This document shows, piece after piece, positions 18,440 to 42,707 of a stretch of DNA of 64,000 nucleotides. A program made the position numbers and the translations under genes. The stretch's first letter is position 1. Each line of letters begins with the position of its first letter. Origin of the DNA: Dysidea avara (Eukaryota; Porifera; Demospongiae; Dictyoceratida; Dysideidae). A model generated the notes under the pieces. It saw only the letters and a program-made list of their open reading frames with translations, was not told the origin of the DNA and did no database searches. The stretch lies in the NCBI RefSeq assembly GCF_963678975.1, contig NC_089275.1:25419977-25483976 (forward strand). Direction: 5' to 3'.

Positions 18440-19390
18440 TTATTATTTTTTTTTACATTAAGATACTAAGACAATGATGATATAAATAAACAATTAAACA
18501 GTGGGCAGAGAGGCAAACTCTGCCCAGTCGGACTCAGTCCTGGGATGATGGTATTGTTGCCATTACAGAAGCAGCATTGCCACGTTGAACATCAATGGCA
18601 ACCTTCTGAATCAAAAATTGGGTGGCCCTATTATCACCAGACTGTTCCATCACCCGGGAACCTATCCGCCTCGCTAATGAGCGTGCACATGATCCCCAAG
18701 CATCCAAGGTCTCAACACATAAAGGGGAGAAGTGAAATGATGGAATCAGAGAAGAATACTTTCTGCACTTAGCTGACTCTGCAGAGTTTGCCAGCCGGCT
18801 GGCACCACTTGCAGAAGTAGATAAATTAGATGGGGCTAGGGTGTCTGAACAGGTAAAATCCCAGAGCAAGGGTAAGCCCCGTGACCAAGGAATCAATGAC
18901 ATGCCATCTGGCCTCCTACCATTACGACACACACCGACTGGCAGGAACACCTCCAGACACCAGAGCACGACGAATAGTTTCATTCACTGCAGCGTGCCGA
19001 GAAATACGGCCTCCACTACGCCTGCAAGACAAACTGTGAGTTCCAAAAACATCAACTTTACTGCCACAAACACACGTATGTTCGACAACGATGGGAACAC
19101 CGAGACGTAGGCCAAGAGCAATCCTCAAAGATTCATTGTCCAGCTTAGTGCACAAGGAAGGTACAGGCATAGATTATATCTATGGTACAGGTAGAGCACC
19201 AAGCCACGCACCAGACTCTGAGGAGGAAACTGACAATAGACGAGCCTTTGTTCTAGCATCAGAGGCAGAGTCCAAAAGAGATGAATAATGGTGTTCGTAA
19301 AGCAGTTCGTCCCAACTATGTTGATAATGTCTGCGGTCTTCAGGGGGCATAGGAAATTCAGCAGACCATTGTCGATGGAAAAAAGAAATT
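18440..19390 (-). pseudogene. Retroelement 3' fragment: CCHC finger and endonuclease-like domain
   Basis: Read on the minus strand, the fragment shows HTCVCGSKVDVFGTHSLSC (a C-x-C...H...C knuckle) and RHAAVN, then a region with RRPDGMSLIPW followed by LLWDFT. The RPD...WD spacing is like the restriction-type endonuclease of R2/NeSL/Hero-group LINEs. Similar domains recur in uncharacterised RT proteins of cnidarians and sponges (from memory). The copy is broken and lacks the RT. Near its 3' end are a GGGCAGAG...CTCTGCCC hairpin and an A-rich tail. A 17-bp palindrome is inserted at 19168. Confidence 0.6.
19168..19184. repeat. 17-bp CATAGAT palindromic insertion
   Basis: CATAGAT-TAT-ATCTATG, flanked by GTACAGG on both sides (19161-19167 and 19185-19191), a perfect 7-bp direct repeat. 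It lies inside a retroelement fragment, so it arrived after that element. Confidence 0.8.
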
Positions 19391-19759
19391 TAAAACTAGT
19401 TGTTAATGCTGCATCAAATATCTACACCTGCGTGGCGGTTTCCCCACTCTTAATATACTGTACTGAGTTGGTTGTGACTGCTCTATTATAACATCTAAAT
19501 CATTTCTGTCATCTATGACTTACCAGAAGCTGAAGACAGAGAGTCTGTCTGTTTTAGCTTTGCTCAAAACTGCGTATGATCTTGAAACCCCAATTAATAG
19601 AGTTATTATTAACGTTTTACAGTGACCAGCACTGAAGGTCTGACAGCAACTTGTGCTGCAGCCTTAGGTTAGGATTACCTAACCTAGTTACAAGGACTCA
19701 GACTTAAACAATGACTTATAGCAAATAAGGTGTAACAGAAAAGGGACCAAAGTAAGGAA
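19391..19759. other. Intergenic spacer
   Basis: It contains GTGACTGCTCTATTATAAC at about 19475, an instance of the recurring CTCTATTAGAGTA motif. No gene was seen. Confidence 0.4.
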
Positions 19760-19885
19760 AAAATTCCTCCAGCTCCAGGATTCGAACTGCAGGTCACCGA
19801 AGTTGTACATATGGGAAGAAGGGTTGAAAACAAGCACAGACCTTTGTTAGTATGCTTTAAGTCTGCTGATGACAAGGCTATTGTT
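19760..19885 (-). repeat. Possible tRNA-derived SINE fragment
   Basis: On the minus strand, a B-box-like GCAGTTCGAATCCTGG occurs downstream of AAAGCATACTAACAAAGG. The A box is weak. The arrangement resembles the segments at 7130 and 23803. Confidence 0.35.
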
Positions 19886-21060
19886 GTTTCCTGTGCATAC
19901 TTATTACGTTGTCACAATCAGTTTAAAAGGGTTCTTATGACAGCATAATCATGAGACCCTCACACACCACTGCATGGACAGATGTAATTGTTTGATTCTG
20001 TATAACTATAGTACATACTTTATGGATGTGCAGGTGCAAGCCTTTATCCTTACAAATATTATAATATGATTTGATGAGTTTTATTAATTTTAGCTACTTG
20101 TCGCTAGAAGAGAATTAAAGTCACAAGATCTCATCCCACTCCCTGTTTCAAGCTATTAAAGCATCATTGATTTAATTCACAAGCAAACTGAGGTTTCCAG
20201 GAATTGCAATGAGTGAAATGGATAACCATGTGTGAGATAACAAACAAATGTGCAGTGCATCTCATGTATAATGCACAAGTTCAGGTGTCGGCATATAGCA
20301 CCATGACTGATTGTCGGGACTTGTCATAACACACCATTTACACATTGTTTCAGCTGTATTTAGCATACTTTTGTATGTTGAAAATGACTCTTTAGGCCAT
20401 GTCAGCTTACTTAGCTGTTTCACAGGTCTGACCAACCCATAGGTTAAAGAAATTAAAAGTTTAACAAGTAAAAATTGAATTGATAACTCGAGTGCAAGCC
20501 ACATCCGCATGCTCCTTATAATACATTTAACTACTGTTCAGTTCAGTTTCAAATTTCACACCATAGCTACTGTATTGCCTTGAATTGTGGCCTGGGCATT
20601 TACTTCATTTAATTACTTTTCACCCATCCAAAGCTGTAGGTTAATAAGTTTTCTTTTGTCTTCAGTTGGTGTTAAGTGATGTCTGTGTTATCAGAGTGTC
20701 CTTTTATCTATTCCCCTCTACGTAGAACTCATACCGTTGAGGCTCTCAAATTTTGTAACTGCTCATTTTAGAAATAGACTTAAAAGTTGTGAAAAACTTT
20801 GTATTACGTACACTGATATTCTAGGCTCTCCAACCCAAGATTAGTGCTGAAGCATATGTAACTAGCCACAACATCCAGTGCCCATTACTGTTTAGAAATC
20901 TTTTATCATCACCCAGTGGTGTTTAGTGCTGGAATGAGCAAGGCATATCACTAAATGCCATGTTGACTAATGGATTACTGTAATAATAATATCATGTAAA
21001 TGCAGTATGTACATGGAACTGGGGCACTAGCCATGCAATAAAATTCACTGTAATACTGTA
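19886..21060. other. 3' flank of the ZIP gene
   Basis: AT-rich with no recognisable gene. Its proximal part is presumably the 3' UTR of the minus-strand transporter. Confidence 0.4.
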
Positions 21061-24000
21061 TCAGTACAAAAATAATAGTAAACTAGATGCCATTATAGCC
21101 ATCCCTATTATCAGGGAGACAGGAACTAAATGACGTGTCTTATCTTGAGAATACTTGTAGGCAGTTGGTAACAGTTCCATTAGTGATATGTACACCATCA
21201 TTCCTGCTACAAGGCCAAACAATACTCCATATACAACTGAGCCAAACAACTCTTTAAAAATCAGCCAGCCAAGTAAGGCCCCGATTGGTTCTGAAATTCC
21301 AGAAAGGAATGACCACCACAGAGCCTTCAGTTTACTACCAGTAGCAAAGTACACTGGCATAGCAACACACACACCTTCAGGAACGTTATGCATGGCTATT
21401 GCTATAGCTAGTGCTGCTCCCAGTGATGGAGATGAAAGGGTGGCCACAAATGTTGCAATTCCCTCAGGAAAGTTGTGTATCCCAATTGCCAGACATGTCA
21501 GCAGTCCCATCTTACGAAGACTATTCGTGCTGTGCTCTTGTTTGTTATCAGCAGTGTTTTCCTTGATAGATCCCTTCTCCAACTAAAAGATAAACAACAT
21601 GTAACAAGTGATGCATAAGTTACTCTAATATACTGTAGGTTTATAGAGCGCCCTGATTGTTAGTAGGATGTAAACTGGTATACAAAATAATGGTTGATGG
21701 AAGTGCTGAAACAATTATTTGGTTATTTGACTATTTAGTCGGTATGACACTATTTGATTCATTACCACACTATTCAAATAATTGTTAGCACTTTGTACAC
21801 TGTATTCAGATGGAAAAGCCAGCTTGAAACATAAGATTGTGAATGAAATAATGTATCTATGCTGTACAAATTCTATTTTAGAAAAGATAAAAATAGCTCT
21901 TAGGTTTTACCTTACTCCCTATTCAGTCATTTTGTTCACAACTATTCGAATAGTAAAAATTGCTATTCATTTCAGCACTACTTGATAGCATACATACTTG
22001 AATAGTATTTCATACAGGGGTACAGTACCACCTTTGGGTCACATATAGGTGGATGCAAATTATGGGAAGTTATGGTCACCAGGAGCACATCGAATCCTAT
22101 GGACAAGGCAGCATATAACTTCGTAAACAGCAAAATTCAAACATGGCTGCCATGTACTATAATAAGTAACTTATAAAATTTCCAAATTAGGATATTATGC
22201 GAAGGTGCATGCTCGAGTACGTCACATTTCAATGCAACAAAACAAAGCTATGGAAATGAAGTTCAATGGCATGAAGGAGGAATAGTAGCACAGGCTTAGC
22301 AGGATAGTCTTCCTACAGTCACTAATCATGTGAAATTACTCTGCTTGACTATTCCAAGCTTTACCTTCGACTCAACAATCTTCCTATGGACTACTATGCA
22401 CAGATTATCAGTTCAGCCTTCCTGTGGTGCAGTTCTTTATTCTTAAAGTGTAACAGCTACCGTTTTCAGAAGATCTGGGTAAGGATATTCTAACACAAAT
22501 AGCAGTTCTTATACGCGCAGTTATATGGCTTCTTGTAATTTTATGAAATAGTATAGAGAGGCTTTGTAGTGAGCAAAAGGCTTTTTATTGCATTGTATTT
22601 GCCATGCAAACTATTGGTAGCGATATCAGTTCTCAGAGCATTTGTACAGATTACCGATATGGTAGAAATTGCCATATCAGCAGCTGATCCGATCACCGAT
22701 CCGATTATCGGTACATCTCTAGTAGCAGCCCATCCAGTGTATCTCTGTTGTGCGCAAGAATGATGTAATCAATTATATACATAGTAACATCGGACACCAT
22801 GTTTGAATTTTGCCCATGGTATTGGTAGTGTACATGCTCCCTTGTCCATAGGGTCCGAATGAGCTCCAGACCATGTTTTCCCTTTATTTATGTGGTGATT
22901 GTTTGCCATCCCAATACAATTGTAAAACCCCCTCCTCTAGCATATTTTAACTAGAGGTGCACTGATATGGAAATTTTCCAATATTCCGATAACTAATATA
23001 TTGGCTACAAAAGTTACTGATTCTGATACCTATATCTGAACATAAAGGTTTTCAGTATGGACACTACAATAAATGTTTAAAAAATGTGGCAAAAAACTTA
23101 ATCCTTAAAGCCACAAAAAGCTTTACAAAACGCATATGCACCACATCCGCATAGTGGCTACTGATACTGATTGATCGATAACTCGTACAGTATATGGAAG
23201 GCCACACGGACTTGAAATCAAGATTTTCGGAATGCTGACATCACAAAGAATAAAATGGTGTCCAAGTTTTACTGATTTTGATGCTCCTTCGCCAAGTTAT
23301 GACGGTTTAAACACAGGGATGTAAATTCGCATACAGTTTTAGAGAAGAAGCAATCTTTGAGGTTTGTAAACACTGTAGACTCTAGTCGTGTGGAAGGTGT
23401 TTCTGTCAATGTACAAGTTGATATGGCCCACTGTGGCACGGTTCAAGCAGCGTTGCTTTCAGCAAGTCCCTCAAGATTAGTCACCTTGTTATCATCTTCA
23501 CTAGCGAAGCGTTAGAGTGAGCTGATGGCCAATTGAGGACAGATTTTCAATTTAAACTAGACGAAGAAGATCGTGAAACACAAGGAGAAACAGTACTAAC
23601 TGTTTTATTATTGACATCTGTAAGTATATAACACTTTGTTATGAAAACAGTTGTTGGTTAAACTTCATGCATTTTTCATGCGTTTTCTATTTTGCCACAT
23701 ATGCGCCTTTAAGGGTTAAAAGGTGGTCACTAAAACCTACATGTATGTAAAGAAAAAAAAAGAATTGTGAAAAAGGTAGTGATAAAAAGGTCTGTAAAAA
23801 AGAAAAAGTATGACTTGAACCCTGGCCATGAAAACCTTTGCAACTTAAGACTCATGCTTTAACTATAGTGCTACCAAGTCAACCATGGAATGCCTTTGAC
23901 AATTATAGTACCTATGTGTAATATCTGCTCTTATCCGCTAAAAAGATCAGATTCGATTGTGGGATTGGCTGTCTTCATTATTGTCTGTGATGCTTTCTAA

Positions 24001-26270
24001 CCGATCCTAGGCAAGGCAAGAAGCAAGGACACTTTACTTCAGTGCTTTCTAACATTTCATGACAAGGGAAGTCATATTTCTACAATATATCCTATACTTC
24101 AGCTGATTCTGCTGACCCGAGTGGGCACTATTTAGACTCTCTGAATTCAAACTGCAACTAAATGTCTACAAAGAATGCTACATCTCCAAGTAAGCAGAGA
24201 GGTATTGACAGGAAAAGGCATGCTAATTTTACCCCACCAAATTCTAAGCAGCAAAAGGACAAGAACAAAGAAACTGTAACTGAACCAGAGGATATATGTG
24301 CTGTGTGTGACGAGCCAATCTTAGAATGGTCAGAAACTAGTGATGGACAGGAGGCTATATTTTGCGAAGGCCGTTGTAATGCCTGGATGCACCGTAAATG
24401 CAGTGGACTATCTTCAACCTTATTTGATATCCTTAGTAATGAATCGAAAGAACCTTACCGCTGTTGTCACTGCATTTTTACACATCAAAGAGATGAAATT
24501 AACATCCTAAAACAACTTGTTGAGTCTTTGACTGAAAAAATTTCTAGCTTGGAATCCAACAACTCTATCACATCCAACTCAACTTCCAAAACTCCGAATT
24601 TAATAGAAGCTAACCACTCCATCACAACTTCTGAAACTCCAATAAGTAATCATAATCACCTTTGTACTCCTTCCTCAGGTCTTGTTGAACCTCCCAAGGC
24701 AAAATCTGATAAACTGTTTAATGTGGTCATGTATGGAATTAAAGAATCCCAACCAAACAGTTCACGAGCCACTAGACTAAAACATGACATGGAAGCCATG
24801 CAAAATGTGCTTACTAATATTGATCCTGCTCTCTCTAAGTCATCTATTAGGGATTTCCATCGACTAGGAAAATACAATACCTCCAATCCAAAACCCAGAC
24901 CTATATTAATTAAATTTCTTCGCACTTTTGATGCAACATCTGTCTTATCTAAAAGATCCTCAGTACCAAGACCAATTCTAATCAAACCTGTCATGACCAG
25001 AGAAGAAAGAGCAATCGAAGCAGTCTATCTGAGAACAAGGTGGCAATTAGCTCAGAATGGCACTGACAAGAATTTTGTCAGGCTAAGAGGAAACAACATT
25101 TATGTCAACAAGAGTCTCTTTGGCACAATTGAAAGGTCCAGCAGCACAGAATCATATGTAATGACTCCTATTACTACCAATGATCATTAAGTTATTAACT
25201 TTGACGATAAGAGCAACTGTACATGTTACTTAACTTCTTTCTCAAGAATTTATCAATTACAGCCACCCACCTTCAATCTAAACTCTCCTTAGCAACTGTA
25301 CGTATGTATGTATGTATGTAAATAAATATGTAAATAAGTAACATAGGGTAATGTACAAGGCTGTTGGTACAAGTTACCTTCAGGCCTTTGGTGTGTTTAC
25401 ACCATAAAGTTTTAAATAAAATAAATAAATTAGTCAACTTTTTATTGATACCGATATCAATACTGGTGCACCTCTAATTTTAATCACCAAGATTTCCCAA
25501 TGGAGCATCCAACTGTCAGTGCTGATACTGTACTGAATGTGATCTAGTTAACCTTATCCCCACCATTTGGTAAACATGTAACTAAACACAATACACACCT
25601 TGTCAAGCATTTCGGCATAAGATGCTCTTCTAACCATCTTTGGCTCACTATTCTCCGTGTTATCACCAGGTGTATTTCTCAGTTCTTCACAAGCAAAATT
25701 AGTGATAGACGGTAACTCATCAGAAATCATAACATCAGATTTATCCTTACTGATAGTTGATGACGTAGAGTTAGTTTCAGGTAGTACACATGAAGGGCAA
25801 TTTGATTCAGTTACGTCCACGGTTCCTTTATTTGTTGAGGAATTCTTATACCAACTGGAATTACAACAGTATAAAAACCCACAGTCCAACTTTATGAGAA
25901 ATTTTGTCAGTAAGTCAAGCACTATTGTTAATAGAATTCCACCGAAAAAGCTAGCAACTGCAACTAGGTCATAATGCTCTGGTATTTCACAGCAAAAGTA
26001 CTGGTTGGATTTAGTCAGTATTTCAGTGAAGGACACATACAACATCACACCAGCAGCCAGGGCTAAACTACAAGCTAGCCATTGTTTACTGGTTCTCTTC
26101 ACACAAGGAATAAATGGGAGAAAACTGCCGAGAAGTGTGGCCAGTCCAGCAGCAATAGTGAGACCAAATGCAAGACCCACATTATCACCTCCTTGATCAT
26201 CACACAGCTCAGGAAGTGGACAATCGTCTTTTGTATAGTTCAGGATAGTAGTAGTGTTTGACATATCCAT
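21061..26270 (-). CDS. ZIP zinc transporter (ZupT/ZTP29-like), two coding exons
   Basis: Exon 1 (26270-25599, 224 codons, from ATG) joins exon 2 (21582-21061) in phase 0 across a GT-AG intron of about 4.0 kb, giving about 397 aa. TM1-3 are in exon 1: VGLAFGLTIAAGLATLLGSF, QWLACSLALAAGVMLYVSF, then FFGGILLTIVLDLL. They are followed by a long Ser/Thr/Asn-rich loop and the junction MLDK|LEKG. Exon 2 carries the signature pair HNFPEGIATF and HNVPEGVCVAMPVYFATG, whose His/Glu residues bind metal in ZIP proteins, and four or five further TMs. It should move Zn2+ (or Fe2+/Mn2+) into the cytosol. The motifs are closer to bacterial ZupT and plant ZTP29 than to LIV-1 ZIPs. A broken duplicate lies at 38821-40239. 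Confidence 0.93.
22085..22865. repeat. Diverged foldback element in the ZIP intron
   Basis: Left-arm segments CTATGGACAAGG and AAAATTCAAACATGG recur inverted on the right as CCATGTTTGAATTTTG and CCTTGTCCATAGG. The arms are about 90 bp and the loop about 600 bp. Inside, near 22600-22722, is a lone hAT-type end (CCGATTATCGGTACATCTCTA) related to the right end of the 30346 element. Confidence 0.6.
23803..23890 (-). repeat. tRNA-derived SINE head
   Basis: On the minus strand, GGTTGACTTGGTAGCACT (A-box-like) is followed by GTTAAAGCATGAGTCTTAAG and then CCAGGGTTCAAGTCAT (B-box-like), with tRNA-like spacing. It is not an intact tRNA cloverleaf by eye. Confidence 0.5.
24162..25190 (+). CDS. LINE ORF1 with PHD finger, no ORF2 attached
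   Basis: This is a 342-aa open frame. Residues 46-106 hold a C4HC3 PHD-type finger: CAVCDEPILEW, FCEGRCNAWMHRKCSGL and YRCCHC. Then come a short coiled coil (ILKQLVESLTEKISSLESN), a Ser/Thr-rich linker, and a C-terminal RRM-like domain (NVVMYGIKES, FHRLGKYN, RPILIKFL). PHD fingers in ORF1 are known in CR1-type LINEs. After the stop are about 190 bp, a GGTGTGTTTACACC hairpin and an AAATAAATAAAT tail near 25430, after which hAT sequence resumes. No RT lies between ORF1 and the tail, so this copy is ORF1-only. Its tail differs from that of the 11216 LINE, so they are different families. Confidence 0.8.
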   Translation: MSTKNATSPSKQRGIDRKRHANFTPPNSKQQKDKNKETVTEPEDICAVCDEPILEWSETSDGQEAIFCEGRCNAWMHRKCSGLSSTLFDILSNESKEPYRCCHCIFTHQRDEINILKQLVESLTEKISSLESNNSITSNSTSKTPNLIEANHSITTSETPISNHNHLCTPSSGLVEPPKAKSDKLFNVVMYGIKESQPNSSRATRLKHDMEAMQNVLTNIDPALSKSSIRDFHRLGKYNTSNPKPRPILIKFLRTFDATSVLSKRSSVPRPILIKPVMTREERAIEAVYLRTRWQLAQNGTDKNFVRLRGNNIYVNKSLFGTIERSSSTESYVMTPITTNDH

Positions 26271-26725
26271 TATGACCTATAGAAAACACATGCATAAGAA
26301 CGTAGAGCCATGAGACTATACTGTATCAGTGGAAATCACACCAACAACAATATACATGTAGTTTCAATACAATAAGTATACGAAACTGCAGGATACAGTA
26401 ATTTGATCCATAAAAAAGTTGATGTGCTTCTTCGTATAAGTTAGTAAGTTACAAACAAAGTAAGTATGCCTTTAACGTATTAGTGTCAGTGGCGGATCTA
26501 GGATTTTTAAAAGGGGGTTTCTGAAAGTTGGTATAGCTATAAGGCATCTGATGACATTTCTCCAGAAACTTTGTGATTTTAGAAGCTCTGAGATCAGATT
26601 TTAGGCTACTTTAATAAATCCAATGTTTTAAACTGTAAATACTATAGCTAACTATAGGGCAAAGGTGGTGACTATAAGCTGTAGCTTTGATTGCTCTATT
26701 AGAGTAGTTACTTGACTGCTCTATT

Positions 26726-28256
26726 ATAGGGTCTGTAATCCGAAGAATCAACTTTTACAAATTGATCCCCCTACCATTGTGGGATGTTCATTGTAGTATC
26801 CCATTGCTAGATCCACCATGAAACCGGAGACACAATTGTTGTCTTCACAGAAATATCGATTTCAGTATTTCGCAAGATGCTAATTTTGTTTTTAAAAATT
26901 TGTGCTCCGCACAAAGGAGCGGACAAAACTTGTTACTTAGCTAGATATTATCTAGAGTTATTGTGTAGTTAAAAAGTACGTACAGTAATAAGCAAATGAT
27001 TCACTGGGTTCCCGGTACAGGGGTACAGGGTTGCTTTCTTTCAAAAATCAGAAAACAAAACACAATTTTTCAAATTCAAACTGCCCTACCTGGAGCCAAG
27101 ACAAGAAAAGCCAACTTTTCCTCATAGTGATGTGGTAAGGTTGGATGCATAGTTTGTCTACGCTGTTAGTCTGGAAAGGATCTGAGACTTCTCACCATCT
27201 GGTGAAGAACGTCAAAATTTTCAGTCGTCATTCCACAGGATTCTCTCAATGGTGCCAAAGTCCTTTCCAGTACTTCTGATGTGACACTGGTCACCTAATT
27301 TTGTTTAGAATGATGATAAATTATGGTCCACAAGTTTGGTAGTATTAGCAGTTGGTGTTTCTGTGATTTCGTACGATGCAGTATACCAGCAGCTCGCCAG
27401 GAGCTCCTCCCAGCTCGAATCGAAAATGAAAGATTTTGTGCTTTTTTTGGTCTGTTTTGGGATATTTTGCAATATAATGGTGATGTAGGGTGATCTAGTA
27501 AATATTTGAAGCTGCTGTGGAGCATGAGAGGTGAAGTCAAATTTGGACAATTTAGCTTGCTGCTGTGGTGCATTGCTTAGAGTGAGGCGTGGAATCTGTG
27601 CATGAAATAATAATTGATAACCGCTGCTACCGAACATCCAGAGACATCTTTTGCCATAGTTTTAGTCAATAAGTAATGATTGTTGTGGCTGTAGAAGCAC
27701 TGGAAATGGCTAGAGAGTGCGACACAATTCTTTAATGCTGTAGAAAATTTTGACACTTGTCACCCAGATCATAGATTATCGATAATCTATGCCCAGATGG
27801 TGAGAAGTCTCGGATCTTTTCCAAACTAACAGAATAGACAGACTATACACCCAACCATATCGAAACACTATGAAGAAGCGTTGGCTTCTCTTGCCGTGGG
27901 TGGTAGGGCAGTTTGAAATCGAAAATTTATATTTCTTTGTCTGTTTTTTCAAAGAAAGCAGCCCTGTGCCGGTCACTCAGCAAATAATTTGCTTATTACT
28001 GTGCGTACTTATTATCTACAAAACTCTGGATATGATCTGGCTAAGTAGCAAGTTTCATCCGGTCCTTTGTGTGGAGCACGAAATTCTAAAAATAAATTTT
28101 GCATCTCGTGATATACTAAGAATGATATTTCTGTGAAGACAACAATCGTGTCTCCGGTTTCATGGTGGATCTAGCAATGGGGATACTACAATGAACATTC
28201 CACAATGGTAGGGGGATTGATTTGTAAAAGTTGATTTTTCGGATTGCGGACCCTAT
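26726..28256. mobile_element. Foldback element, arms about 480 bp
   Basis: The left end ATAGGGTCTGTAATCCGAAG is inverted on the right as CGGATTGCGGACCCTAT. The arms run to about 27210 and from about 27750, for example CATGAAACCGGAGACACAAT against its inverse near 28150. The arms have diverged by substitutions and small indels. CTATT flanks both ends (26721-26725 and 28257-28261), and both lie in a CTCTATTAGAGTA-like motif. The right arm carries a 22-bp palindrome (27770). Frames in the arms are not conserved between arms. Confidence 0.75.
27770..27791. repeat. 22-bp perfect CATAGAT palindrome
   Basis: The 11-bp arm CATAGATTATC is followed by its exact inverse GATAATCTATG. CCCAGAT flanks both sides (27763-27769 and 27792-27798), a perfect 7-bp repeat. 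The opposite arm of the host foldback (about 27200-27215) has a single (A/C)CCAGAT-like site without the palindrome, which serves as an empty-site reference. Confidence 0.88.
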
Positions 28257-28327
28257 CTATTAGAGTATCTCGATCGTTTTTAATGCAGTGGGAGATGAAA
28301 AGTGAAGTGTTGCTGAGGGTTTAATAG

Positions 28328-28929
28328 TAGTGTAGCACCGACATGAATTTTTTTTCACATTTACCGATTATTTGCCTATTCCTGTAACCGATATGCAGAT
28401 ATTTACCAATATTTTTCAATTCTTCAGAACAGGGGAGGAGGAGCAGAAAATCACCTAAAGTTTATGTGTATAAACTGCATTTGTAATAATAATGTAATCA
28501 ATGTTATTAATTGTGTGGGCAGCCGACCTGCAATGTTTTCTACAGTTTTGCCACTAACTCCTTTCATGGAAAAGGAAGCCAAGTAGTTATAAAACATCTA
28601 AGCCAGCTTATCAAACAGTGTTTATAATGGGATTCCAGTGTGAAGAGTGATCAACTTATTGCGTGGGCGGCCAATAAGTATACACAGCCTACTATAGCCT
28701 TGCAACCATACTTGTGCAAGCAAACAAGCCAAAACAGTTACAAAACAGTTATAGCAAAGTGACAGTCACCACCTTCTTTACTTTCACCTGTTCATTGCCG
28801 TCATTAACGATTGATTGTGGGTTTCGATTAATCAGCAAATTATTTCCGCTTCGTAGCCGATACCGATACTTGTAAAATTAGCTAATTCGGCTGTTACCAA
28901 TAATTCAACCGATTATTGGTGCAACACCA
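28328..28929. mobile_element. hAT-like MITE, 602 bp
   Basis: The left end TAGTGTAGCACCGACATG and right end CGATTATTGGTGCAACACCA are imperfect inverted repeats. TTTAATAG stands on both sides (28320-28327 and 28930-28937), a perfect 8-bp duplication. Subterminal ACCGATAT repeats resemble the other hAT-like copies. Non-coding. Confidence 0.85.
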
Positions 28930-29204
28930 TTTAATAGCTATAAATGGTGTCAGTTAAGTACAGCTGCATGCACGTGACAGAAACACAGTGGCATAGTTGT
29001 TTGATATGACAAATTGTCAGTACAACAATGTTTATGTATTTAGACTTCCATTGAGCTAAATTCAAAAGGGGGTTTCCAGAAACCCATCTAGACCTGCCAC
29101 TGAGTGTTTAACTATGAACGAGGGTGGATTCAAGGGGGTTCTTTGGAAGTCCCCACCAAAGCACATTTCAAAAATACATTCAACAAACTGTGGATGATTA
29201 ATAA

Positions 29205-29422
29205 CATAGCAAAATTTGTGTTCCAGTACTACCTATACTAATTCCGCCTTTAATCAGTATTGAAACTAAAATAATCACTATATATACCGAGACAAAACAG
29301 AGCACTGATTCTAATGTCATTCAGTATTGGGACCTGTTTTTGTCTCAGTTTAGTGAACTTCGTAGTTCCAATACTGAAATATAGCACAATATAGGCAGTA
29401 TTTGTACACGATTTTTGCCGTG
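29205..29422. mobile_element. PIF/Harbinger-like MITE, copy 2
   Basis: It begins CATAGCAAAATTTGTGTTCC and ends TTTTTGCCGTG, with TAA on both sides. It aligns with 15070-15323 and 33143-33376 along its length but is the most diverged of the three. Confidence 0.7.
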
Positions 29423-32380: not shown

Positions 32381-32442
32381 TAGTCTGGCGCCGCCGCCCC
32401 CCCCTTCTCGCAAAACTAGAAGGGGCGGGTGGCACCAGACTA
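32381..32442. mobile_element. 62-bp TAGTCTGG palindromic element
   Basis: It begins TAGTCTGGCGCCGCCGCCCC and ends AGGGGCGGGTGGCACCAGACTA, leaving only a short loop. Flanking 9-mers CCAACACAT and ACAACATAT match at 7 of 9. It is the smallest member of the TAGTCT group with a plausible duplication. Confidence 0.65.
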
Positions 32443-33142
32443 ACAACATATTAGCTCCACCTCTCAAATCCTTAGCTTGCTCTTTATACTATGCCAGCAG
32501 ATTTCAGAAGTACTGAAGCATACTGAGCCTATATATCAATTAAAATGTCAGCTCTAAAGTTATTTGGTGAAAATATTATTACCAGATTTAATTTCAAAAC
32601 ACATAATTTTCAAAAATTTTCTGGGGGAGCATGCCCCTAGGATCCTCCTAGATTTAAGTGTGCATGCAACAGAAATCAAACCTGTCACCAAAATTCCTTT
32701 GTAGCTACCTCCAGAATACATGTATTACTCTTGACACTGTTTGCTGCACCGGGCTATGATACCACAATAATCCAAAATTCTCAGACTGCTTTTTTTTTTT
32801 TTGTGTGTGTCAGTGTGGGCAGGGGTCTGCATGGTGAAATTTGTCTGATTCAGAGAATGCATGGCTGTAAAGAGGGGCGCGTAATCTATGTCAACATTAT
32901 GCCATTAATCAGCAGCACAGTGATATCATGATCAGGTGCAGCTGCATGACTATTGTGCCATTTAAATAAACAAAGATACAGTCCATGGAGTACTGGTTCT
33001 ATACACATCAATTGAATAACAAAACACATATGCAAGGACACACATAATATACACAGAGGAGGAAAGCCTTTAGCTGCCATGCAGGTCACACAGCCCACAC
33101 CTGTCAACTGGGCAGGTGTGACCTCTATATGGCAACCATGCA
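32443..33142. other. Intergenic with element scraps
   Basis: GGGGGAGCATGCCCCTAGGATCC near 32623 recurs in part near 34940 and looks like an eroded element end. A T-run and TG-rich stretch lie near 32790. No gene was seen. Confidence 0.4.
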
Positions 33143-33376
33143 CACAGCAACAAAAATAGTGTTCTAATACTACCTATTCTAACCCTGTCTTTATTCAGTA
33201 TTGGAACAACTATTTTAAAAAACTCCCTATACGAGACAAAACTAACCTCAAATCTATAAATGACTCTAGCGCTATTCACTATTGGGGGTTGTGGTCTGTT
33301 TTTGTTTGAGCCAAGGTAGAGTTTTTGGACTGTTAGTTCCAACACAGTCAGTATTTGTGTATGAATTAATGCTGTG
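33143..33376. mobile_element. PIF/Harbinger-like MITE, copy 3
   Basis: It begins CACAGCAACAAAAATAGTG and ends GAATTAATGCTGTG. It is nearly collinear with copy 1 (15070-15323). Flanks do not show an intact TAA pair. Confidence 0.7.
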
Positions 33377-34120
33377 CCAGAAGCTATTCTTTTGTGGGGC
33401 CTAGCTCATTTCCAGAAGGATTATGCCAGTAACTCATGCCAGATAAATAAATGCATACTGGCAAATCTGTAGCTATCATGTCTCAAGAATGAAGGGCTGC
33501 CTAGGCCAGGCGTTCAAAGGCCAAAGTCCTACAAAGTCCTATACCCATTTGCAAAAACTATATATTTTTACAACTATAGTATAGCCTCCAAATGCATGGG
33601 CATCAGCTATACACATAGTCAATAGTAAACTAGTACTGAACCAGTCACAGCTTGCATTTTATAACAGTTATTATAGGTAGTGAACAGAGCTATAGACCTT
33701 GTGTGTTAAAGTGTCAGTTGAGAGTAGGCAGGTTGATGAGAGTTCTCACCAGTATGTGGAGCACACTCAACATGCGGGGTTACAATACATGAATTTTTGA
33801 CCAATGCCTAGCTACCACAAGATTGAATCTGCATGCATGCAAGCCAAATATTAGATGGAAAAATTGTAAAAAAAGGTTGAGATCTGGAACAATTTAAGGA
33901 AATAGTGAACAGAAACCAAACAGGAAGAACAACCTATAGTATAGGTATTTGCAACCTTGTACCTATAATTTTATACTGACATAATTTATAAGCTACCTTT
34001 GATGCCACTTCTTGTGGTGCAGAATTGCAGGTAATTGCCATTTCAGTCTGACTTATATAAGCAGCCCTGTTACCATTTACAACTAGCTTGTAATTATACA
34101 TGGCCTTTTGACCACAACTA
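33377..34120. other. Intergenic, nothing recognised
   Basis: AT-rich, with only short frames. Confidence 0.4.
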
Positions 34121-34505
34121 TAGTATGTTCACGTTGAGCTGAACCCTGAAAAACAGCTAAAAATTAAAAGTGGATTTTTTCTCAATAGAGTTAACATTTC
34201 TGCCAACCAGATGATTATTGGTAACAGCAAAGGTGTCAACAACAGACATGTACGGTTTGGCTCCATTACAAGTTCGGGAAAGGGCTCTAATGGATACTGT
34301 ACTTATATGGCTTCTCCATAGGAAATGTATTGTGAAAATTTTGATTGGCTGTAAATATTATGTCAAACATTTGAACAACAAGATTTTGAAATATTTTTAG
34401 CGGATCAAGCAGTACTACAAATGAGCCAAATTTCAAGATCATGTGTAATTGCATCCATGAGTTATTAAATGTTTTTGAGGATTCAGCTCAACGTGAACAT
34501 ACTAT
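34121..34505. mobile_element. 385-bp MITE with 35-bp inverted ends
   Basis: TAGTATGTTCACGTTGAGCT at the left is matched by AGCTCAACGTGAACATACTA at the right, continuing as GAACCCTGAAAAAC against GTTTTTGAGGATTC. TA flanks both sides and could be a Tc1/mariner-type duplication. Non-coding. Confidence 0.75.
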
Positions 34506-34748
34506 ATGTTTGACTCTTTTTTGTAGCCCCTGAGCGTTACCCAATGTGTGAAACGTATAGGCAGTTGGCATTTGTTCAGTACCCCTGGTCACTAATTAAA
34601 AGAACTGGAGCAATGCAACTAAATATCTTGCTCAACAACTCACATATGAGTGCGCATGCACACACATGGCCACACCCATGCACTGCATGTATCAGTCATG
34701 TCACACACAATCCATGAAGCAGTTACACTTCAATAAGGTCAGTGGCGG

Positions 34749-34975
34749 ATTTAGGGAGTTTCAAGGTTTCCATGGAAACCCCCTTTGAAAAATAATTATG
34801 CATCAGTTGAGCATTTTAATTAATTATTGCGGCATGCACCTATAATAAGCAATGTGCATGCTCGATGTGCATTTATTTTACAGATAATTTTACACTAAAT
34901 TTTTTGCCAAATGCAGTCTCAGAGCATCTAAATTTCAAATTTCATGGGAGAGCATGCCCCCCCCCCCCCCCCTAG
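34749..34975. mobile_element. Partial CAGTGGCGGAT element
   Basis: It begins CAGTGGCGGATTTAGGGAG, then GTTTCCATGGAAACCCCC, and reaches a run of about 20 C near 34954. The matching right end was not found. Confidence 0.5.
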
Positions 34976-35459
34976 CGTATGCATGCATCACATGTGTGCT
35001 TTGCACACATTATACAGCTATACAGGATGAGCTATAGCATTAAAAAGATATAGAAGTCTCCATTGAGGTACGAAATACACTAATTGTGACTTAGATCACC
35101 TTAAAATACAGTGATTTTTCAAATTGGCTGTCCAATGTAACTATTATGGTATTTTTGGTCATGTGGCCACTTTTTGGATGTTTTTGTGCATTAAAATTAT
35201 GCTGATACTCGCTGATACTAATGCTACAAGCAATCCAATAATACTCTAGCACTTGTTTTGCTTTATCTTAAAGGTCAGTCTGTGTGAAAATCTCCAGAAA
35301 CAACAAAAGGAAGCAACTTTTCATTTTGAGTTGGAAACCCTATATATAAACAAATCAACCTCCTAAAATTTGAGTTGGTCCCTAAAAATCGATAAGGCGC
35401 ATGTGACTCTATTCTTCGCGCAGCGCTTATCAATTGGAGTACTGTACTCTGTCCTTGAG
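34976..35459. other. Intergenic
   Basis: No gene was recognised. Its right part becomes more GC-rich towards the element at 35469. Confidence 0.4.
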
Positions 35460-35468
35460 GGCTCACAC

Positions 35469-35995
35469 TAGTCTCGTCCTCGCAGACCCATTCTCCGGGG
35501 TGGCGCTTATCGATTAGAAGCGCCCCCCAGAGGAGGGTGGAAGCTGTTTAAGCGCCGTTAAAATGAATTATGCTAAATGCTCGTTTTCTGGATTAACTAA
35601 ATCGTGTGGATGGTGTAACGAAGTGTGGCATCATTGTCTTGTTGAAGAATATACATACCTGGTTTAGTGCAAGCGTACTACGCGCTGAAGTGTTTCATCA
35701 GTTTTGCCCTGAAAACTAAGTGATTTTACAAAACAAAGTACATCATCATAATGCTAACACGAAGTACAATCTAAATATCTAATGATCCCCACCGTTCGCT
35801 AGTTTTGTATTGCGACTATTGAGGCTCACGTGAAATTCTAAACAGAGGTATGCAATTAGCGTAATATTTTCGAGCATCGCTCCGTCTATTATCTATGCTT
35901 CCACCCTCCTCTGCTTCCCCCCTTTCAGAGGGGGCGCTTATAATCTCTAATCGATAAGCGCCACCCCGGAGAATGGGTCTGCGAGGACGAGACTA
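35469..35995. mobile_element. MULE-like MITE, 527 bp, abutting a gene
   Basis: TAGTCTCGTCCTCGCAGACC at the left is the inverse of GGTCTGCGAGGACGAGACTA at the right. The arms continue through ATTCTCCGGGGTGGCGCTTA for about 65 bp. GGCTCACAC flanks both sides (35460-35468 and 35996-36004), a perfect 9-bp duplication as in MULE elements. The next gene's ATG is only 24 bp beyond, so the transcript probably starts in or before this insertion. Confidence 0.9.
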
Positions 35996-36019
35996 GGCTC
36001 ACACACAGAAGATCAGAAG

Positions 36020-38004
36020 ATGGACAACGCCTCTGAGAGTGACCACCTCCAGCATCTTTATCTCACTGGAGTGAAACCAAATGGTAATGAAATTGGTGCT
36101 GGCGCGTACGGGAGAGTTTTCGAGGTGGAATATTGCGGGAGTGTTTACGCGGCTAAAGAAATTCACTCCATTTTAGTACAAGGAGTTACTCCAGAAGAAT
36201 ATGAAGCGACAAAGAAAACATTCCTTTCTGAGTGCATTCGTAGCGGGGCCCTTAGTCACCCAAACGTGGTACAGTTTCTAGGAGTGTACAATCCTAGTGG
36301 ACAGTCGCGATTACCAGTTCTAGTGATGGAGAGGATGCAGGAGAGCCTTACGTCAGTGGTGAGGAAGTACCCAAATATTCCAATGTCTGTGAAGTTGTCT
36401 ATGTTAGTGGATGTGTCTAGAGGATTGTGGTACCTACACAGCCATAATCCTCCCGTTGTCCACCGAGATCTTTCTCCCAATAATGTCTTATTGAACAGCC
36501 AGTTTGTGGCAAAAATCAGTGATCTAGGAGTAGCCAAAGCAATCACACCTGACAGTACAAACACAAAGACTTGTGCTCCAGGAACAGTAGACTTCATGAG
36601 CCCAGAAGCTTTGTTGCCATCTCCTAAGTATGGTCCTTCCCTTGACGTATTCTCCTATGGCGGATTGATACTTCATGTGGTGAATCAAGAGTGGCCTACT
36701 CCATTACACTATGTTCTGACTGATCCTGAAACAGGACGAAAGGTAGCATTATCTGAAACAGAACGACGTCAAGAGCACATGAAGAAAATGATAGGAGAGG
36801 CAGTACCAGCAGATTTACGAATATTAGTTGAGCAATGTCTTCATGATAATCCAGATATGCGTCCTCAAATAACAAATGTGTCAGAGAGAATGAGTAGGAT
36901 GAAAGAAGCAGAGAGTGGTTGGAATCCAGCCGTTACCATGAACTCTGTGACATGGCAAGTAGGACACGTGACTGAGAAGTTGGCCATACCACCAACAGCT
37001 AAGGCACAGGTAAAAAAATTCTACATATTGACAGATACTGTGTATTACCTTATTGTTCACAGCAACCGGTGGATGTCCCAGATATTTTTAACAAGGCAGT
37101 AAAGGTGAAATGGAACAATGTACCTCCTCTACCAGTTGGTCGATCAACGTGTATTGCTGTGCTATTGCATGGATCAATTTACGTTGGTAGTGGTTTTGAG
37201 GGAAGAAGTGTCAATGATCACCTCAGCTGCTACAGATTAGATGTGTACAATTTATATACCAACCGATGGGACCCCAACCCCATCACCACACCATACCGTG
37301 CTTTTGCTATGACTGTACTGGATGATAAACTGATAACTGCTGGAGGATTAGTTAATGTTGATGAGACCACCAACAAGGTACTTGTTCTTGGTGCTGGACA
37401 ATGGATGGACTACAATGTATTGCCAACTGCCAGGAGTTGTGCTACTGCTGTCGGATGCCATTCCATGTTAATTGTTATAGGAGGAAAGGCCATAGTGAAG
37501 GGTAGATGGACTGCAATACCAACTGTTGAGTTACTAGACAATACCAATGGATGTTGGTATACTTGTGGCAACCTCCCAACACCACACTTCCAGTTCAAGA
37601 CAGCTGTTCTGAATAACACACTCTACTTATTGGGTGGACATGATGTGGAAGATAAATCTTCACCAAAAGTGTTTTCTGCTTCTTTGGAGACACTCTCAAC
37701 TCACCAGTTAAAGTGGCAGTCTCTAAATGATACTCCGTGGCATTGTTCTTCTCCTGTTGTTGTGTCTAACAAGTTCTTGTTGTCAGTTGGAGGAAGACAC
37801 TCATCTGATGCAACCATCCAGTCTAGTGAGGTACATGCTTTCAATCCATCAACTGGTTTATGGGAACTAATGACAAATATTCCAGTAGCAACCAGTGGTC
37901 CGACAGTTGTGGGTGTGGCTGACAACATATTCATATTGGGTGGAACTGTTGGCTTTCAACAAAGGTTGATCTCTGCTAATGTGTGGAGTGGCATATTTGA
38001 ATGA
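36020..38004 (+). CDS. TKL-like protein kinase fused to Kelch repeats
   Basis: Exon 1 (36020-37009) and exon 2 (37063-38004) join in phase 0 over a 53-bp GT-AG intron, giving 643 aa. The kinase occupies about residues 20-300: GAGAYGRV loop, Lys46 in YAAKEI, HRDLSPNNVLL (Asp150), DLG (168-170, in place of DFG), and SPE (194-196) in place of APE. All catalytic residues are present and the HRDLSPNN form fits TKL kinases. Residues about 330-643 form Kelch-type blades (VGSGFEGRS, TAGGLVN, VIGGKA, LLGGHD, SVGGRH, LGGTVG). No signal peptide or TM is seen. The Kelch half probably recruits substrate. Similar kinase-Kelch fusions are, from memory, numerous in sponges. The substrate is unknown. Confidence 0.92.
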
Positions 38005-38820
38005 CTATATAATATAGACTTAGCTACCTTTGTGAGTAGCTTATACAGTTATAATGATGTACGGCAATGCATCAGTTTTTAGTCAAAGCAACTGACATTT
38101 CAAAATTAGAATTTCATTATGTCTAGACTGTAGGTAGCATACATGACACTTACATAATATGGTAATTAAGTGGCATTCTCTCACAGAAGCATATACAGTG
38201 AGTTGTATAAAATGGAGGTCATGCCATCCATCAGTTATTTTTATGCCTCACCATTTAGTCTGGCTGGCCGACCATGCATTTTTAGTGATTTTAATATTGA
38301 TCATGCCTTCATTTGTAATTATTAATTTTTTATGCTTAATGGAAAAGGTGAGGTGTTGAAATTTTACAAGTGAGAATGACATAACTGTTATATGAAAGGT
38401 TAAAGTGGCTGATATAGTGACTAACATTTTTTGTCGTGTAATTATGCATAGCAACAAAAAAGTAAATTAAAATTATAGATGTGGTTGCAGAATCTGCCTG
38501 GCTGTGAAGGAAGCATAAGTGTCTGGGCTGGATATAGCCGCCACAGGTACTGAATGAGGTAATGGAACATGTAGGTGTGTATTGAAAGAGGCTGGGGAAT
38601 ACCCTACAGCTATATGCATACACTCCTAGTATACACTTTTTTTACTGTCTATGGGGCCACGTCATGATGTGTAAAGTACGAATGCGGCTACACAAACTTA
38701 TTAATGTATATTTCCAGTCCCCAATCATATAGTTGCTGATTTGAGCAGTAATTGCATATATACACCATTTAATTATACACAGGAGAATACTATCTGTAAT
38801 TTAATCTGACTATTATTTTA
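38005..38820. other. Intergenic between kinase and ZIP duplicate
   Basis: AT-rich. It presumably holds the 3' UTR of the kinase-Kelch gene. No other gene was recognised. Confidence 0.4.
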
Positions 38821-40239
38821 TCAGTACAAAAATAATAGTACACTAGATGCCATTATAGCCATCCCTATTATCAGGGAGACAGGAATTAAATGACATGTCT
38901 TATCTTGAGAATACTTGTAGGCAGTTGGTAACAGTTCCATTAGTGATATGTACACCATCATTCCTGCTACAAGGCCAAACAATACTCCATATACAACTGA
39001 GCCAAACAACTCTTTAAAAATCAGCCAGCCAAGTAAGGCCCCGATTGGTTCTGAAATTCCAGAAAGGAATGACCACCACAGAGCCTTCAGTTTACTACCA
39101 GTAGCAGCAAAGTACACTGGCATAGCAACACACATACCTTCAGGAATGTTATGCATGGCTATTGCTATAGCTAGTGCTGCTCCCAGTGATGGAGATGAAA
39201 GGGTGGCCACAAATGTTGCAATTCCCTCAGGAAAGTTGTGTATCCCTATTGCCAGACATGTCAGTAGTCCCATCTTATGAAGACTTTTCCTACTGTGCTC
39301 TTGTTTGTCATCCTTAGCTGATCCATTCTCCACCTAAAGTGTTACCATAATAACTAGATAAGTATTCAGTGAAGCAGCATGCAGATCTCAACTGTATCAA
39401 TTGCTCTATTAGAGTAGAGTAGTTTATGCATTCTATTATTTAAGCAACTATACATACTGTAACTGAACAATTATAGCTACCTCATCAGACATTTCTAAAT
39501 ACGAAACTATTCCATCTTCATTATTTACTCCATTGACTACTGGCTCAATTGCTTCAGTGCAATTGGTACCATTGCTGATGGTGCTATTTGGCTGAGTTTC
39601 TGGGTTGTGAGATTCAACATTGGTTTCATCAGAGGGCATACATTCTAATTCCTTACAGGTAGGGTTAGTAATTAAGATGGCAACTCATCAGAGTTTGCCT
39701 TGGAGTTTGTAACATCCACTTCCTCAGTTGCTGAAGAGCTACTTCCAGGCAGTACACTTAAAGAACGGTTTGACTCAACTGGAATGTCCACAATGTGCTT
39801 GTTCTTATACCAACTTGAGTTACCGGCACAGTATGAAAACTTTGCACATGCAGTCCAACTTCATGAGAAATTTTGTAATTAAGTCAAGTACTATTGTCAA
39901 CAGAATTCCACAGAAAAAGCTAACAACTGTAACTAGGTCATAATGTGGCCACACTTCTCGGCAGTTTTCTCCCATTTATTCCTTGTGTGAAGAGAACCAG
40001 TAAACAATGGCTAGCTTGTAGTTTAGCTCTGGCTGCTGGTGTGATGTTGTATGTGTCCTTCACTGAAATACTAACTAAATCCAACCAGTATTTTTGCTGT
40101 GAAATACCAGAGGTCCAGCAGCAATGGTGAGACCAAATGCAAGACCCACATTATCACCTCCTTGATCATCACACAGTTCAGGAAGTGGACAATCATCTTC
40201 TGTATAGTTTGGGACAGTAGTAGTGTTTGAAATATCCAT
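38821..40239 (-). pseudogene. Duplicate of the ZIP gene, disrupted by inversion
   Basis: Exon 2 (39333-38821) encodes 170 aa nearly identical to the intact gene, with one extra Ala in AATGSK. The intron is short (39334-39472). Exon 1 homology runs to an ATG at 40239 (MDISNTTTVPNYTEDD). The segment coding TM1-TM2 (39945-40112) is inverted, and the variable loop shows in-frame stops and frame changes, so no full transporter can be made. Homology ends at the stop codon on one side and about 40 bp upstream of the ATG on the other. Retention of the intron means DNA-level duplication rather than retrotransposition. Confidence 0.85.
39945..40112. other. 168-bp microinversion within the ZIP duplicate
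   Basis: This segment encodes LLGSFLPFIPCVKRTSKQWL and onward to CCEIPE on the plus strand, while its flanks encode adjacent parts of the same protein on the minus strand. In the intact gene the same segment (about 25977-26144) is collinear. The breakpoints carry CTGG/CCAG on the two sides, a short inverted homology that may have helped the event. Confidence 0.88.
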
Positions 40240-40388
40240 TATGGTCTGTTGAAAACACATGCATATAGAATGTACAGTGTTATTGCATTGAGACTATAAG
40301 CTTTGTTGTATACAGTCAGTGCACTGATGTAGCTATAGGAACAATAATAATAATAATAATACCGATGAAATCACATATTTATGCTGTC

Positions 40389-41240
40389 CAATGGCGGATC
40401 CAGGATGGGGCATTTGGGGCAAATGCCCCCCCACACACACACACACCTTTCGGAGGAGCCATACAGCCATACTTGAGTCTGATTAAAATATTAAACTTTA
40501 TGTCAGGCCAAGATCAGTTTGTAAAACTCATGAAATTATGCACATTTTATTAGAATTTATTACAAATTGACCAGAAACCAAGTCAAACTAGCAGTGAAAT
40601 TGTCATCCAGCACATTCGTGCGTACTAAGCACCTCTAAAATTAATTATCGTGTTTTATGATTATGATTATATACTGGGTCGAGACAGCACAGCTGATAAT
40701 TGACCCAGGTAATTACAAAAACAAAAATAAAAACATTTAACATATACATGCATGCATAAAATTATTTATTGTGTGATGACAAGGTGGTTGGTAAAAATTT
40801 CTGTGGGTTGCTCTTCAATAAAATTGTTAGGTGAAGTGTTCCATTCTTTTAAAGTATTCGGAAAGAAACTTTTCTGATACGATACAGTGGAACTGACTGG
40901 GATAATAAATCGATGTTGATGGAGCTGTCTAGTTGGATACTGAGTTGGTAAGAAATGAGTTGGTAAGAAATAAGATGGTAGCTGTATGGAAGGAATAAGC
41001 TGATGAACAATTTTGTGTTGATGTTGGTTAAGACATTCAGAGTCTTTTAAACAGCTTTTAAGGCTTCACAACCATCTGCAAAGGCCAAAATGATAAAAAT
41101 CAACAGTGAGACACTGCTAAGAGGTGATTATTTGCTGTTCCAAAAATGCAGCAACTAACAATAGAATCTGGCTTTCCCCAACCACCCACAACTTAGCCTG
41201 TTTGTGCCCCTCCCTTTGCCAGCTCCTGGATCCGCCCTTG
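40389..41240. mobile_element. CAATGGCGGATCC-end element containing a LINE tail
   Basis: CAATGGCGGATCCAGGATGG at the left is inverted at the right as CCTGGATCCGCCCTTG. CTGTC flanks both sides, a 5-bp duplication as at 26487-29102. A LINE 3' fragment is nested inside. Confidence 0.65.
40640..41070 (-). pseudogene. 5'-truncated LINE 3' end
   Basis: On the minus strand, a frame ending at a stop at 40766-40768 reads ...SYQKSFFPNTLKEWNTSP and then NFIEEQPTEIFTNHLV. This is the FFPRTI-x-WN-LP block that closes CR1/RTE-like RT proteins. The 3' region has a CTGGGTC...GACCCAG hairpin and an (ATAATC)n tail near 40660. It is a family distinct from the 11216 LINE. Confidence 0.7.
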
Positions 41241-41596
41241 CTGTCTGTGATAGTCTCATACATAACCAGACTGCTTGGGTCAGCATAGCAGTGTTTTTAT
41301 TCTACTGACATTCCCAGCATGTAGGATTTTGCTCTACTCTGATTGGTGTTAAGCTGTAGGAAAGGCTTGTTGCAAATTAGTGCAGAACCGATAATACAGC
41401 TATACAGGACTTTGAAATACTGCTCTCAAGTTATCATTGAACAACCTGCAGCTTAATGCTAATCAGAAGCTGTTGCTAGATGCAGAACAAGAGGTCCTAT
41501 ACTAAGTTCAGCAGAACATTTTCCATATCAAAACATATGTATGGGAAGCATTTTCAGGTGGTCAACATTAAAAGTTTTCAAAACACTGGGTTAAAC

Positions 41597-42424
41597 CATA
41601 GATAATAGAGTAACAGGGATAGGAAACGCAATAACGTGACGTCACAAAATAGTACATTTCTATTCGAATTCCGTGTAGTACGTCACGAACATACTCGTTA
41701 CGCTTGCTGCGCTTGTATCAAAGAGAAACAAATTGTTGTAACGACAGAATTTTGTAACCAATGACTGTGAAACTTCGCTACAGTGAACTCAAGTAAATAA
41801 TCGAGGGAAATAGGATGGTACCAACCCTCAAGGAAGTTATACGCAAAATTAAAGGAGATTGAAAGTGAAAAAAACGGACCAAAAATTACTTTAAACCACT
41901 TTACTTTCTTCGTAAATATATTCTATCCTTTTAACTGTGATAAACCTATTCCTTACCATTTAACAGAGGGAACCAGAGGAAATATCGGAGCAAAACAGGA
42001 ACTGTTGCTTGAAGAAACGACTAAGTATCTTCCATTTTTAACCAAAAGTTTAAACCACCTTGCAGTACAACGCAACGGTAAAAGACTGTGTTGGTGATAC
42101 GCCTAGCTTACCACAAGATTCGAAAGTGGAACCGGCTATAAAAGAAGCGGTATGGACGAGGCATGAAGGTACGATGAGCGAAAGTGTGACAGCGTGTAAC
42201 AATCACGGTTAATGCGATACGCTTTGTTACAAAATCTATGGTCTGAATTCTCTCGCCAAAATCTCTCACATAGGCCTAAATACTTACTGTAGTCTGTTGG
42301 ATTACTATTTACACTGCTTAGAACACTAATTCTCACAAAACTGTCTTGTCCTTTCAAGTCACGCGTAACGGAAATGAAACCGGAAATCGCTTGCGTTTCC
42401 TATCCCTTTACTCTATTATCTATG
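41597..42424. mobile_element. CATAGAT-family element, 828 bp, intact ends
   Basis: It begins CATAGATAATAGAGTAACAG and ends CTTTACTCTATTATCTATG. Inverted ends extend about 33 bp through GGGATAGGAAACGCAA. GTTAAAC flanks both sides (41590-41596 and 42425-42431), a perfect 7-bp duplication. The interior matches 2720-2785 and 5696-6430 of the older copy. A short minus-strand frame (42136-42357) has a counterpart in that copy but is too short to be a transposase. Confidence 0.92.
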
Positions 42425-42659
42425 GTTAAACCCTTAAAAATTAAGAATTATGCATTAAATAAATCTAATATCTGTTTAATATCTTTTTTGAAACCTCAAC
42501 TTAGTAAAACAGGCTGATCATAAAATCTCATCATTCCTTGTCATTTGTTGTCCAATGTAAAATACATGTATTTTACACTACATACAAAAAAATTTACAAC
42601 CTTAACTCACAAAATCTCTACAGGACACCATACAATAAAAGAAAGCCCTTGAATTTCTC

Positions 42660-42700
42660 CATAGATACAGTATACCAGTATATGGTATACTGTATCTATG
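42660..42700. repeat. 41-bp CATAGAT palindrome
   Basis: Arms of 18 bp (CATAGATACAGTATACCA and its inverse) surround a 5-bp loop. ATTTCTC flanks both sides (42653-42659 and 42701-42707), a perfect 7-bp repeat. It lies only 236 bp from the 828-bp member. Confidence 0.88.
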
Positions 42701-42707
42701 ATTTCTC

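Follow-up and report, generated by a model that had tools for sequence, protein, structure and literature searches.

Cleavage by a P-type transposase is represented in the literature examined by one enzyme, that of the Drosophila P element, which according to the cited accounts leaves 3' tails of 17 nucleotides (nt). In the same accounts, the joints formed after excision in flies contain as much as 17 nt from each tail, set between duplications of 8 base pairs (bp), together with microhomologies and templated filler that are partly dependent on polymerase theta (PMC2895639, PMC7776569). Galileo, a member of the P superfamily in Drosophila, is described as making 7-bp duplications with the consensus GTAGTAC and as having long, internally repetitive terminal repeats (PMC2775673). 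In Anopheles, autonomous P elements are reported alongside short non-autonomous relatives with the same ends (P-type miniature inverted-repeat transposable elements, P-MITEs), with duplications of 8 bp (PMC1562414). The zebrafish element Pdre2/THAP9 has reported 8-bp duplications and 13-bp terminal repeats and is excised in cell assays (PMC10983969, PMC7776569). Here we describe a 64,000-nt stretch (the window) of the genome of the sponge Dysidea avara (550.8 Mb in 108 contigs), which contains three short insertions of 17, 22 and 41 bp and one of 828 bp, all starting with CATAGAT, ending with ATCTATG and flanked by 7-bp direct repeats. The short insertions are very probably excision footprints of P-superfamily DNA transposons, and not ultrashort transposons.

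The preliminary description of the window attributed the four features to one transposon type, with which the shared ends and the 7-bp duplication agree; their positions, ends and perfect direct repeats were all verified. None of them is assigned to a strand. The 17-bp insertion CATAGATTATATCTATG is located at 19161..19191, with the duplication GTACAGG on either side. By eye, its arms would fit CATAGATTATAT... ends joined over a 2-nt overlap. The 22-bp insertion CATAGATTATCGATAATCTATG occupies, with its CCCAGAT duplications, positions 27763..27798, in a host repeat that also has an empty-site form. The 41-bp insertion at 42653..42707, with ATTTCTC duplications, is made up of 18 nt, a 5-nt filler and again 18 nt. 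The 828-bp insertion (residing at 41597-42424, or 41590..42431 with its GTTAAAC duplications) is a non-autonomous P-type element. The three short insertions had been called palindromes; the 22-bp insertion is a perfect 11+11 palindrome, the 17-bp insertion an imperfect 7+3+7, and the 41-bp insertion has the 18+5+18 arrangement. A scan of the window, with up to two mismatches tolerated in the duplication and one in each of the ends, detected no additional site of up to 75 bp.

Intact ends in the genome consist of CATAGAT, a family-specific spacer and then a core motif, GGGATWKGAAAC; the part before the core is referred to here as the tip. Over the whole genome, the pattern including the core is present 530 times in forward and 540 times in reverse orientation, with 1 and 0 occurrences of the reversed-pattern control. 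Tips are 15-27 nt long among the ends listed, most commonly 23 nt (15 of 52 distinct ends, taken from 100 listed occurrences after exclusion of one with a doubled tip). Short forms belonging to two families, with tips of 26 and 23 nt, were retrieved using the 18-nt start common to both tips, which by design gives one arm a minimum length of 18 nt and leaves room for arms extending up to 24 nt past the 26-nt boundary. This query matched 102 times in forward and 89 times in reverse orientation, with no match in either orientation for the control; 73 places were scored among the matches listed, and the core is absent from all of them. Of the 46 places in the family with the 26-nt tip, 16 have a longer arm of the full 26 nt and seven more have one of 25 nt; in the 23-nt family the longer arm measures 23 nt in three of 27, the commonest lengths being 20 nt (11 places) and 21 nt (8 places). 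Three formal overruns of 1-2 nt among the 73 places are palindromes of 52-55 bp, which have either one arm with an altered base or an insertion, or a single extra base at the joint. The 73 joints comprise 19 that are blunt, 25 with 1-6 nt of microhomology and 29 with apparent filler of 1-24 nt, in part the result of later point mutation. Short forms are often asymmetric, as in L048, to which one end contributes 26 nt and the other 9, and 58 distinct sequences are present among the 73 places.

The same anatomy is found when all families are taken together. The set scored contained all 50 listed places of 14-44 bp and 45 of the 50 listed places of 45-75 bp, the two sampled families included; the core is present in 0 of 50 and 0 of 45, respectively. 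Of the 119 arms of at least 11 nt that match a listed end, one overruns its tip, by 1 nt. In the family of the 41-bp footprint, intact ends read CATAGATACAGTATACCAACA followed by GGGATTGGAAAC, the tip CATAGATACAGTATACCAACA being 21 nt long. This family has four more footprints, every one with a different joint and one likewise built as 18+5+18. The tips of the 828-bp element measure 19 and 18 nt before GGGATAGGAAACG, and its family is represented by five footprints.

A count of short forms over the whole genome, which the preliminary description had proposed to compare with chance, is far in excess of it. The pattern CATAGAT-N(0-30)-ATCTATG, corresponding to forms of 14-44 bp, occurs at 3046 places, and the reversed pattern used as control at 297. 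For forms of 45-75 bp the numbers are 622 and 64, and for forms of 76-106 bp they are 232 and 60. Flanking sequences were fetched for 40 of the 50 places listed in the 14-44-bp search; the 7-bp duplication is perfect at 18 of these 40 and has at most one mismatch at 22, versus 17 of 1560 pairings at up to one mismatch when flanks of different places were paired with each other. Perfect matches of exactly 5, 6, 8 or 9 bp were found at no more than one of the 40 places. For the two-family footprints, flanks were likewise fetched at 40 places, with a perfect duplication at 25 and at most one mismatch at 30, versus 21 of 1560 mispaired flanks. Matches of 8 bp are seen at 0 and 1 of 40 sites in the two sets, where 7-bp matches are seen at 18 and 25. 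The 43 perfect duplications lean towards GTWWWAC: G is present in 23 at position 1, T in 29 at position 2, T in 18 and A in 11 at position 3, T in 17 and A in 15 at position 4, A in 20 and T in 11 at position 5, A in 34 at position 6, and C in 22 and T in 15 at position 7.

Some of these places are copies of each other. For one repeat (L023:4786-5320), all 40 scored copies, out of 710 candidates, match the whole query or the query minus its last base, a 31-bp footprint included; in this repeat and the 39 other places the scar arose once and then multiplied with its host. Four of the 50 listed places of 14-44 bp carry the footprint of this repeat or a near copy, two of them aligning as copies of the repeat. 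Because a footprint-bearing repeat has been amplified, the raw number of places overstates the number of excision events.

The insertion of 22 bp can be compared with empty sites. Its host is a dispersed repeat for which a genome search gave 41 matches; one is the window copy, 38 extend across the site and two are partial. Twenty of the 38 were aligned, and all 20 read TCA-CCCAGAT-GGTGAG, with a single CCCAGAT and no palindrome, which puts the gain of the window copy at exactly 22 + 7 bp. The palindrome is missing, too, from an inverted paralogue some 0.6 kb distant (27032-27202), which has one C fewer at the site. Duplications and empty sites do not decide between a footprint and a tiny element, since tiny elements that are mobile would show both.

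What decides for footprints and against tiny elements is the absence of the core, the asymmetry of the stubs, the presence of filler and the termination of the arms at the tip/core boundary. We read the short forms as products of excision because their layout matches the Drosophila P joints described in the cited accounts, apart from 7-bp instead of 8-bp duplications and longer tails. In both systems a duplication is followed by up to the whole tail, microhomology or filler, the inverted tail and the second duplication, and in both the tip of the element starts with CAT (PMC2895639, PMC7776569). The tail is 17 nt in Drosophila, while the tips in the two sampled families are 23 and 26 nt. The joints described from Drosophila come from induced excision in the laboratory, whereas those in the sponge are a natural, genome-wide set.

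In the mechanism we propose, a P-type transposase would insert elements with duplication of a 7-bp target. Upon excision, the cut in one strand would lie beside the duplication, at the outer tip, and that in the other strand where the tip meets the core GGGATWKGAAAC. Either side of the donor break would then retain the duplication and a single strand of tip length (23 or 26 nt in the well-sampled families). By analogy with Drosophila, these strands would be 3' tails. As both ends of an element have the same or similar tips, the two strands could pair imperfectly, and end joining, probably of the alternative, polymerase-theta kind if the analogy with flies extends to repair, would seal them, whether by trimming, over at most 6 nt of microhomology or with the addition of short filler. 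The expected product is a duplication, a stub, optional filler, an inverted stub and a duplication. The limit of retention moves with the core, at 26 nt in one family and 23 nt in the other, which suggests that the core sets the inner cut; these two well-sampled families, one of them at its limit in just 3 of 27 places, are joined by weaker data from others. We consider it fairly probable that, in this group of P-superfamily elements, the conserved core and not distance from the tip determines where the inner cut falls, that the length and sequence of the tail vary by family, and that tails with partial self-complementarity steer repair of the donor site towards short palindromic scars, now accumulated at thousands of places.

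The preliminary description had proposed that a transposase moves anything bearing these ends, down to little more than two 7-bp half-sites. Mobile elements with CATAGAT ends of as little as 14-50 bp would have perfect 7-bp duplications, would leave the same short form at several loci, each time between different duplications, and would have empty sites such as those of the 20 of 20 paralogues at the 22-bp palindrome. Against them, no short form holds the core (0 of 73 and 0 of 95 listed places), the arms halt at a family-specific boundary and are often asymmetric, with filler or microhomology at many joints, and the sequences mostly differ from one another. In Drosophila, P elements are reported to require more than 100 bp per end, the minimum for transposition being 138 bp at one end and 216 bp at the other (PMC1562414). 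The proposal did not stand up to these observations, and we regard ultrashort mobile elements as very unlikely.

Internal deletion during interrupted gap repair, as opposed to end joining of cut tips, would likewise retain both ends and the duplication, and forms of 45-106 bp do exist, several of the listed 76-106-bp ones with the core. The endpoints of such deletions should spread through the element, yet the number of places drops from 3046 to 622 to 232 with increasing length and the arms end at the boundary of tip and core, which leaves this origin extremely unlikely. Chance palindromes or hairpin-prone repeats would be consistent with the listed places that have no duplication and with a raw count inflated by one amplified repeat; the tenfold excess of 14-44-bp forms over the reversed pattern, and perfect duplications at 18 of 40 places as against 17 of 1560 mispaired flanks even at one mismatch, reduce their probability to a negligible level. 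For the bulk of the places, the excess and the duplications together refute chance.

Several observations weigh against excision footprints. Near-perfect duplications are missing from 18 of the 40 fetched places of 14-44 bp, which may be older, spurious or altered, and from 10 of the 40 fetched two-family places. Arms in the 23-nt family mostly end 2-3 nt before the boundary. Some short palindromes recur unchanged at more than one place, among them a 40-mer present at five of the 73, three fetched copies of which (L053, L054 and L057) have different duplications; the self-complementary 6-nt TCCGGA explains this recurrent sequence as a favoured joint. In the CATAGATAATAGACAC family a 19-nt tip was expected and the sole intact end found has 23 nt, a limit within which the longest listed arm, of 22 nt by eye, falls. 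The footprints of 17 and 22 bp are loosely assigned to donor families, and the absence of a detectable THAP domain, described below, is unusual. Finally, a full element and a footprint were never seen at one site in different copies or alleles, and for this reason we infer excision from the anatomy. No copy of a repeat was found with the full element where another has the footprint: the 22-bp site gave only empty sites among the 20 copies fetched, and the amplified repeat, searched for a copy with the full element, has the footprint in all 40 scored of 710 candidates.

The search for an autonomous element with the same ends, suggested in the preliminary description, led to autonomous-looking elements with P-superfamily transposases. 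PF21787, the RNase H domain of P transposases, has at least 151 matches in the genome, with 150 of 447 candidates scored. Several of these matches have the same score and frame, as recent copies would. Two complete elements have CATAGAT ends and perfect 7-bp duplications: one of 4936 bp (L027:716-5651) with AGTGAGT and one of 4467 bp (L028:473-4939) with TTCCAAG. PF21787 and PF21789 score 80.5 and 24.8 bits in the first and 90.5 and 41 bits in the second (cut-offs 24.6 and 24). The GTP-binding insertion domain PF21788 (cut-off 24.8) scores 31.6 bits in L027 with the stops in the frame replaced by X and 19.5 bits, below the cut-off, in the single open reading frame (ORF); in L028 it is below the cut-off either way (17.3 in the single ORF, 15.9 with X at stops). 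The inverted ends match over about 31 bp in L027 and 41 bp in L028. In L029 the inverted ends match, with no perfect duplication, and the stretches fetched for L025, L026 and L030 contain no paired ends with a duplication. Ten further elements were sampled at both ends, of which nine have a perfect 7-bp duplication and one has a duplication with one mismatch.

A THAP domain is usual in P transposases. It had no match in the three coding-strand frames of L027 and L028 or in the ORFs scanned from L025, L026, L029 and L030, in all of which an intron-split or diverged domain could escape detection. Compared with solved structures by phmmer, the transposase exon of L028 matched no P-element structure; its only match (E 0.75) looks unrelated, and no catalytic residues are therefore claimed. 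By their predicted transposase domains the elements are assigned to the P superfamily, and L027 and L028 have the terminal inverted repeats with a duplication of 7-8 bp that characterise it. They are not canonical P elements, because the duplication is 7 bp and stubs can exceed 17 nt; neither the 8-bp duplication nor, judging from the footprint stubs, the 17-nt staggered cleavage of canonical P elements is found.

Among other members of the superfamily, Galileo is similar in its duplications, of the same length and with a consensus comparable to the GTWWWAC lean. The preliminary description held 7-bp duplications to be uncommon among named superfamilies, a statement to be qualified by their reported presence in Galileo (PMC2775673). 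The ends differ, those of L027 and L028 matching over short stretches and not as long repetitive terminal repeats, and Galileo is reported to have a THAP domain (PMC3688188), none being detected here in the frames and ORFs scanned. The sponge elements resemble those of Anopheles in having short non-autonomous relatives and differ from them in duplication length; the word "footprint" is absent from the text of the Anopheles paper (PMC1562414). Pdre2 is likewise a P-type element outside the insects, different in its duplications and terminal repeats, and excision by zebrafish THAP9 in S2 cells is reported to be followed by larger deletions of flanking DNA (PMC10983969, PMC7776569).

A second ORF of 330-373 amino acids is present in all four P-transposase stretches compared, out of six, and runs opposite in strand to the transposase: L027:4525-5517 (-), L028:447-1565 (+), L029:419-1408 (+) and L030:305-1312 (+). 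That of L028 is 38%, 41% and 28% identical to the other three. None of the four has a Pfam match, and the one from L028 is without a credible match to a solved structure. A two-gene P element with genes on opposite strands would be unusual. At G000:C1:7465600-7465625 there is a footprint whose 17-nt stub belongs to the L027 family; an intact member of that family (7466215-7471150) lies roughly 600 bp away, a pattern that local reinsertion would give. The flanks of this footprint share 6 bp (CAGTGC), not 7.

New in these data are a natural archive of P excision scars and the evidence for an inner cut at the core, with a tail length that differs by family. In the literature searched, mostly open-access and covered by titles and the beginnings of abstracts, and hence weak evidence for novelty, no genome-wide set of natural P footprints and no variable tails were found. 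The genome holds enough scars for the cutting reaction to be read from them: very many natural joints from many families offer a comparison of the positions at which the enzyme cuts, of the point from which it measures, and of the repair of P breaks in the germ line of the host. For annotation, a short palindrome between perfect duplications looks like a minimal transposon and can nevertheless be a scar, and such sequences should be kept out of element counts.

The 828-bp element has no coding domain in the single frame scanned. A decayed, longer relative of it, of about 3.8 kb and again without an assigned strand, is present in the window at 2692..6459 with the core motif at both ends; it matches 758 bp of the 828-bp element at 94% and 94 bp of it at 93%. 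The relative has lost CATAGAT at its left end, its duplication is degraded, and no Pfam domain was detected in its six frames. Elsewhere in the window, a 952-residue open frame at 11213-14071 resembles, by eye, the endonuclease and reverse transcriptase of non-LTR (long terminal repeat) retrotransposons, and the ORF list shows a tandem repeat at 52700-52960 that encodes (PACL)n in one frame.

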